NCBI GenBank assembly: GCA_009760885.1
Contig: CM019713.1
Location: 4,842,996-4,906,995, forward strand
Origin: Achatina immaculata
Taxonomy: Eukaryota > Mollusca > Gastropoda > Stylommatophora > Achatinidae
DNA length: 64,000 nucleotides
Direction: 5' to 3'
A program made the position numbers and the translations under genes. This document shows, piece after piece, positions 7,326-7,650 of this stretch (the first letter of the stretch is position 1; every line of letters starts with the position of its first letter). The notes under the pieces were generated by a model, which was not told where the DNA came from, made no database searches, and saw nothing but the letters and a program-made list of their open reading frames with translations.

Positions 7326-7650
7326 AGCATCAAACAGTGACCTAGCAGCGTCAAACAGCGACATATAGACATCAAACAGAGACCTGCTATCATCATACAA
7401 GCGACCTATCAACATCAAAGACATACCAGCATCAAACAGCGACCTGGCAGCATCAAACAGCGACCTACAAACATGAAACATCGACCTGGCAGCATCAAAC
7501 AGTGACCTACAAACATGAAACATCGACCTGACAGCATCGAACAGCGACCTACAAACATGAAACATCGACCTACCAGCATCAAACAGCGACCCACAAACAT
7601 GAAGCAGCGACATACCAGCATCAAGCAATGACCTACCAACATCAAACTCG
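7326..7650 (-). repeat. 21-bp minisatellite of duplicated 5' splice sites
   Basis: On the minus strand the unit is GTAGGTC, about seven variable bases, then GATGCTG (alternating with CATGTTT), 21 bp long with roughly 14-15 units. The first unit spans the donor of the Ly6-type exon (TTG then GTAGGT at 7636). Because 21 is a multiple of three, each later GTAGGT, GTATGT or GTGGGT lies in the same phase, and the reading frame stays open through the array to 7302, encoding seven-residue repeats such as GRSLFDA and VCRSMFH. A second frame is also partly open, which is expected of a 3n repeat. Confidence 0.9.

Follow-up and report, generated by a model that had tools for sequence, protein, structure and literature searches.

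Introns can reportedly arise from tandem arrays, where repetition of the donor together with the acceptor yields a new intron, as Zhuo et al. are said to have described in 2007. Competing duplicated splice donors are, to our knowledge, best known from built constructs. In human paralogs internal tandem repeats are reported to alter the exon-intron structure and can activate cryptic splice sites (PMC2812944). For Drosophila, intron sliding and near intron pairs have been described in which spacing by multiples of three lets the boundary move stepwise (PMC2891723). The intronic minisatellite VNTR6-1 of TERT, with a 38-bp unit in intron 6, is presented as a proposed length-dependent splicing switch that is linked to G-quadruplexes (PMC11830802). 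In the literature on splice donors in tandem repeats, covered by titles and abstract openings and outside subscription papers, we found no minisatellite built of an exon's own donor.

Such an array is located in the window, i.e., the whole analyzed stretch of 64,000 nucleotides from Achatina immaculata (contig C3, 4842996–4906995). Tandem Repeats Finder revealed a 21-bp period with 15.5 copies at 7326–7647. Read along the minus strand from 7646 to 7326, this minisatellite (consensus TTTGATGCTGGTAGGTCGCTG) starts inside the second exon of a small Ly6-like gene with a cysteine-rich product and takes in the 5′ splice site of this exon. Alignment by hand gave 16 units, corresponding to approximately 15 extra copies in the neighbouring intron. 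Unit 1 (7646–7626) consists of the last 10 nt of exon 2 and the first 11 nt of intron 2. The earlier note had stated that the 21-bp unit holds the exon-end donor TTG/GTAGGT, and this is indeed the case, with 7636 as the first intron base on the minus strand. Units 1–10 are exactly 21 bp long, unit 11 (from 7436) has 17 bp, the next unit 22 bp and the remainder 21 bp. The two indels past 7427 sum to −3 and the frame is kept, an outcome with a chance of one in three.

The window was searched with the consensus allowing up to three mismatches. All 10 matches obtained lay within the array, compared to 0.01 expected. A search of the snail's own 1.65-Gb assembly (145 contigs) with the array query 7420–7625, in which simple repeats and very common words were skipped, returned the array itself as the sole match. 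A dispersed repeat that landed on the donor by chance is disfavoured, since this search gave no second match. The unit starts with TTTGAT, the Phe-Asp codons that are kept in the window gene, in a protein of Candidula unifasciata and in a paralog of the gene. Because the unit opens with these conserved codons, its most likely origin is a duplication of the exon-intron junction, with the exon edge as the founder. The identity to the unit two steps away (0.71–0.95) exceeds that to the adjacent unit (0.62–0.81), which points to growth of part of the array as 42-bp doublets, later than the founding. Repeats with periods of 10–500 make up 17.1% of the window bases in 34 merged arrays. Thus, contact between a minisatellite and a splice site is not unlikely per se here. 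The remarkable part is the founding of the array upon the splice site itself.

The gene extends on the minus strand from approximately 8410 to 4004. Exons 2 and 3 were located by reading the flanks of the array and were then confirmed with the Candidula protein. Exon 2 (7637–7783, 147 nt, phase 1 at both ends) encodes the first half of the cysteine-rich domain, EGKQMCWSC...CIITAEFDV, and matches the Candidula protein with 76.6% over 47 aa in tblastn. Intron 2 (4381–7636) is 3256 bp long and of phase 1. Exon 3 (4004–4380; tblastn 68.5% over 54 aa) encodes (V)TGDPTFIHRGC...CNDKKLPKSP, the second half of the domain, followed by a leucine-rich tail and a stop codon at 4004–4006. A minus-strand scan from 7783 to 64000 for an ATG, a hydrophobic core and a strong phase-1 donor was passed by a single candidate, the proposed coding part of exon 1 at 8410–8335 (hydrophobic MDGRKTNICLILFILSVVMLFPIAV, phase 1, donor TAG/GTAGGT). 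A tblastn search with exon 1 of the paralog gave nothing convincing, and the proposed exon 1 was absent from its matches. The assignment rests on its position and on its likeness to exon 1 of the paralog.

Several other features were recorded in the window. In the same intron, approximately 60 bp past the donor array, another tandem repeat (44 bp, 2.9 copies, 98% match) occupies 7136–7263. Upstream of the gene, the plus strand carries a 702-aa retrotransposon ORF at 9741–11849 with a reverse transcriptase domain (PF00078, E 1e-37). Related retrotransposon fragments were recognized by eye at 6002–6646 within intron 2 and at 9210–9440 upstream of exon 1. Likewise by eye, an in-frame 18-bp repeat of approximately five copies, encoding NTGYIC repeats, was seen at 14894–14985 of the plus strand inside a reverse-transcriptase-like frame. 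The reading frames at 57–1571 and 1949–3442 recur approximately 1.89 kb apart, suggestive of a recent tandem duplication. Both 50050–51364 and 59075–63008 hold large compound arrays that combine AAGTCAGCAAGCTGTACAAG with C-rich spacers.

In order to fix the true exon end, the gene was compared with its homologues, a check that the earlier note had named. The 136-aa partial protein of C. unifasciata showed 72% identity over 101 residues to joined exons 2 and 3 without a gap. Joining TTG/ (7637) to the acceptor at 4380 yields AEFDV-VTGDPTF, and the Candidula sequence reads AEFDS-VTGEPTF with no insertion; it was compared as protein, and its DNA may hold an array. In the paralog, which is found on another contig (C6), the exon ends at the same residue and in the same phase, AEFDT-ATGEPTF, with the donor GTATAT. 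Both homologues consequently place the exon end at 7637. A repeat scan of the first 1.5 kb of the paralog's intron, which measures 3287 bp compared to 3256 bp in the window gene, revealed no tandem array alongside the donor. Searched with the protein, the own genome showed four matches, which all fall in the window locus or the paralog locus. In protein database searches Candidula was the only relative, besides one apparently unrelated repeat ORF. The two gene copies on two contigs would fit the ancestral genome duplication that is described for Stylommatophora (PMC12328838). Over 95 codons the window gene and the paralog share 63% amino-acid identity, with dN of 0.23–0.25, dS of 0.96–2.03 and 24, 19 and 42 differences at codon positions 1, 2 and 3, respectively. 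These values point to constraint on the coding exons along one branch at least, and probably along both. A pseudogene is disfavoured by the dN/dS of approximately 0.11–0.24 between the paralogs.

Ly6/uPAR (LU) domains contain ten cysteines, with C-x2-C at the start and C-N at the end, and are encoded by two exons divided by a phase-1 intron. LU proteins possess a signal peptide and often a GPI-attachment tail. By eye, the arrangement CWSC...C...C...KC...RGC...C...C...C...CN in the window gene, the Candidula protein and the paralog fits the LU cysteine pattern. Intron 2 is of phase 1 in both the window gene and the paralog, in agreement with the LU exon split. A simple scan showed a hydrophobic exon 1 at both loci. 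The tails of the paralog (LFVVSVLLCLCMLFL) and of Candidula are ordinary hydrophobic sequences of the GPI type, and that of the window gene (4004–4183, minus strand) is a long leucine-rich, poly-leucine run read from a CTA-type trinucleotide repeat. The anchor signal of the window gene may be replaced by this microsatellite. A Pfam search up to E 10 assigned no family to the joined domain, the Candidula protein or the two full proteins, and NCBIfam gave no convincing match. A sequence search of the PDB returned nine rows with E 0.39 or worse, mostly nanobodies, and none with an alignment as query. Two models of the Candidula protein reached a mean pLDDT of 47 and 50. Foldseek with a low-confidence model placed uPAR and GPIHBP1 in the first rows (best E 0.33), but unrelated folds were interspersed among these and the further three-finger chains. 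Since the profile and PDB matches are unconvincing and the fold matches weak and mixed, Ly6-like denotes a resemblance rather than proven membership. In the two low-confidence models the junction falls into the loop of a predicted hairpin with strands 39–47 or 39–46 and 53–61. Should the protein be of the Ly6 kind, we take this loop to be the place of the second finger.

The minus strand of 7326–7650 contains GTAGGT five times, GTATGT twice and GTGGGT once. The claim that later units offer these motifs in 21-bp steps was borne out in eight of the 16 units, the real donor included, and all eight donors are in phase 1. The real 5′ splice site GTAGGT in copy 1 lies at 7631–7636. The alternative donors, likewise on the minus strand, are CTG/GTATGT at 7610–7615, TTT/GTGGGT at 7589–7594, CTG/GTAGGT at 7568–7573, three copies of TTT/GTAGGT at 7547–7552, 7505–7510 and 7463–7468, and CTG/GTATGT at 7421–7426, the last donor in step. 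Their use would add 7, 14, 21, 28, 42, 56 and 70 residues with 0, 0, 1, 1, 2, 3 and 4 cysteines, respectively. The GT is kept in all five units closest to the exon and is gone from the units starting at 7541, 7499 and 7457 and from the last five units. Each donor was scored with a general metazoan weight matrix rather than one trained on the host's own splice sites. The real donor obtained a score of 2.30, the 97.9th percentile of the 7163 GTs on both strands of the window. The donors at 7616 (+7) and 7427 (+70) scored 3.51 (98.8th percentile) and the strongest alternative, at 7574 (+21), scored 4.57 (99.4th percentile). The four TTT/GT copies remained at or below 0. Pairing with the start of U1 RNA gave duplex energies of −8.8 for the real donor and for 7574 and of −5.3 for 7616 and 7427. 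Three of the seven alternatives outscore the real donor and 7574 ties with it in U1 pairing; silence of the copies is therefore not a given. Folding of the array RNA was worse than that of 100 of 100 shuffled sequences (z +2.29). Consequently, strong structure does not conceal the copies, and masking of the donors was rejected.

Eight in-phase donors, two of which (7574 and 7616) exceed the real one by the weight matrix, might be taken for a working bank of alternative donors, from which cells or alleles pick different units and so insert 7n extra residues into the middle loop of the cysteine domain. A change in length may be tolerable in the predicted hairpin loop (mean pLDDT 50). However, four of the seven alternatives score no higher than 0, 7616 pairs worse with U1, cysteines are added from +21 onward, and Candidula and the paralog manage without the insertion. 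Furthermore, among 7997 scored candidates sharing most words, the sole other match with an SLFDA-like repeat was an apparently unrelated metagenome ORF. This 162-aa hypothetical protein on a 1011-bp JGI contig contains seven-residue SLFDAT repeats with 47% identity over 83 columns of the array frame, a likeness which is probably convergent.

The exon frame stays open through the array to a TGA at 7302–7304. That the frame is open across the array, as the earlier note had pointed out, is correct, but chance alone suffices for this: simulated neutral arrays remained open with P ~0.63 for 11 units and 0.45 for 16 units. Because the 21-bp unit offers few one-step stops in the exon frame, the open frame is uninformative and was rejected as a sign of coding. 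Relative to the consensus, units 1–11 carry 7 synonymous and 24 replacement changes and 0 stops in the exon frame, where fractions of 0.30, 0.69 and 0.01, respectively, are expected under neutrality. All 16 units together carry 14 synonymous changes, 40 replacements and 1 stop, the latter in the last, misfitting unit with the change read alone, the real frame being open to 7302. Hence no synonymous bias was found within the array in this comparison, which counts against the donor bank.

The donor position +1 is intact in nine of the 16 units and +2 in 12. Changes were counted on trees built leaving out the tested column. With 6 of 44 inferred changes +1 is the most-changed of the 21 columns, again at odds with a bank of maintained donors, which we regard as unlikely. 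Position +2 has 4 changes, and the pair takes 10 of 44, with P 0.008 under uniform change, a crude null applied to few events in dependent units. Taken at face value, this value and the lack of GT at the donor place in the distal five units would suit the view that copied donors do harm and that selection is clearing them away, with the first donor left in charge. However, columns 18 and 19, which are not splice positions, jointly carry 10 changes as well, the +1/+2 pair ranks only second of 20 neighbouring pairs in raw counts, and the five exon-adjacent units all have retained GT. Such removal thus appears quite unlikely. The column pattern speaks against the copies being maintained and lends only faint support to their removal.

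The same pattern bears on the idea that the copies serve as decoys or as a buffer, recruiting U1 snRNP near exon 2 and strengthening its definition, or replacing a mutated first donor. Five GTAGGT sites in approximately 175 bp, two of them with a U1 duplex of −8.8, are compatible with this idea, and a 5′ splice site at the 3′ end of an exon can increase recruitment of U2AF and U2 to the upstream 3′ splice site, as reported (PMC8724738). Buffering predicts kept GTs, but the GTs are among the least kept, fastest-changing positions of the unit, and the paralog manages without an array. We therefore consider decoys or a buffer very unlikely, and buffering against donor loss, as proposed in the earlier note, is disfavoured. 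The note's other proposal, that donor choice could add multiples of seven residues in the middle of the domain, is upheld as far as in-phase copies and loop position in a low-confidence model are concerned, but no line of evidence points to use or upkeep of any copy. Since the donors in the copies lack conservation and nothing can be read from the open frame, the function proposed for the array is possible but unsupported. The observation itself was correct in almost all its details.

The probable explanation, in our view, is a largely neutral minisatellite that was seeded by tandem duplication of a 21-bp segment across the edge of exon 2 and intron 2. In the founding event 10 exonic and 11 intronic bases would have been duplicated in tandem. 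The later units, which sit in the intron, appear to have grown partly as 42-bp doublets. The cell would normally use the first donor, the sole one giving a homologue-like product. The copies presumably cost little because a mis-chosen donor would insert 7n residues in frame into an interstrand loop. They would be drifting, as by-products rather than as a maintained switch, and some noise in the form of rare use of 7616 (+7) or 7574 (+21) is plausible. Little probability remains for the bolder view that the junction itself has turned minisatellite, with repeat number and donor choice setting the loop length of a surface protein in seven-residue steps. On this view the array would be an inherited dial for loop length that mutates quickly, and intron sliding would be caught midway.

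The locus provides eight naturally occurring donors that share one phase and a similar context, with the real member fixed by two homologues. It could reveal how the spliceosome selects among donors and whether repeats of a junction that stay in frame contribute to intron sliding. Exclusive use of the first donor would make it a case of a minisatellite overrunning a splice site harmlessly. Splice sites within tandem repeats are shared with the introns that Zhuo et al. (2007) reportedly described from such arrays, but here only the donor side is repeated. As in the human paralogs, where minisatellite growth changes exons and introns and paralogs differ by the repeat, the array distinguishes the window gene from its paralog; in that report, however, repeats are described as lengthening exons or introns or yielding new introns (PMC2812944), whereas here an existing junction is the unit. 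The multiple-of-three distances between splice positions resemble those of the Drosophila near intron pairs. Unlike in intron sliding as outlined there (PMC2891723), no shift is seen, and the array would amount to a reserve of in-phase positions. Finally, the unit of TERT VNTR6-1, as portrayed in that study (PMC11830802), is no copy of a splice site, whereas the array described here copies the donor.
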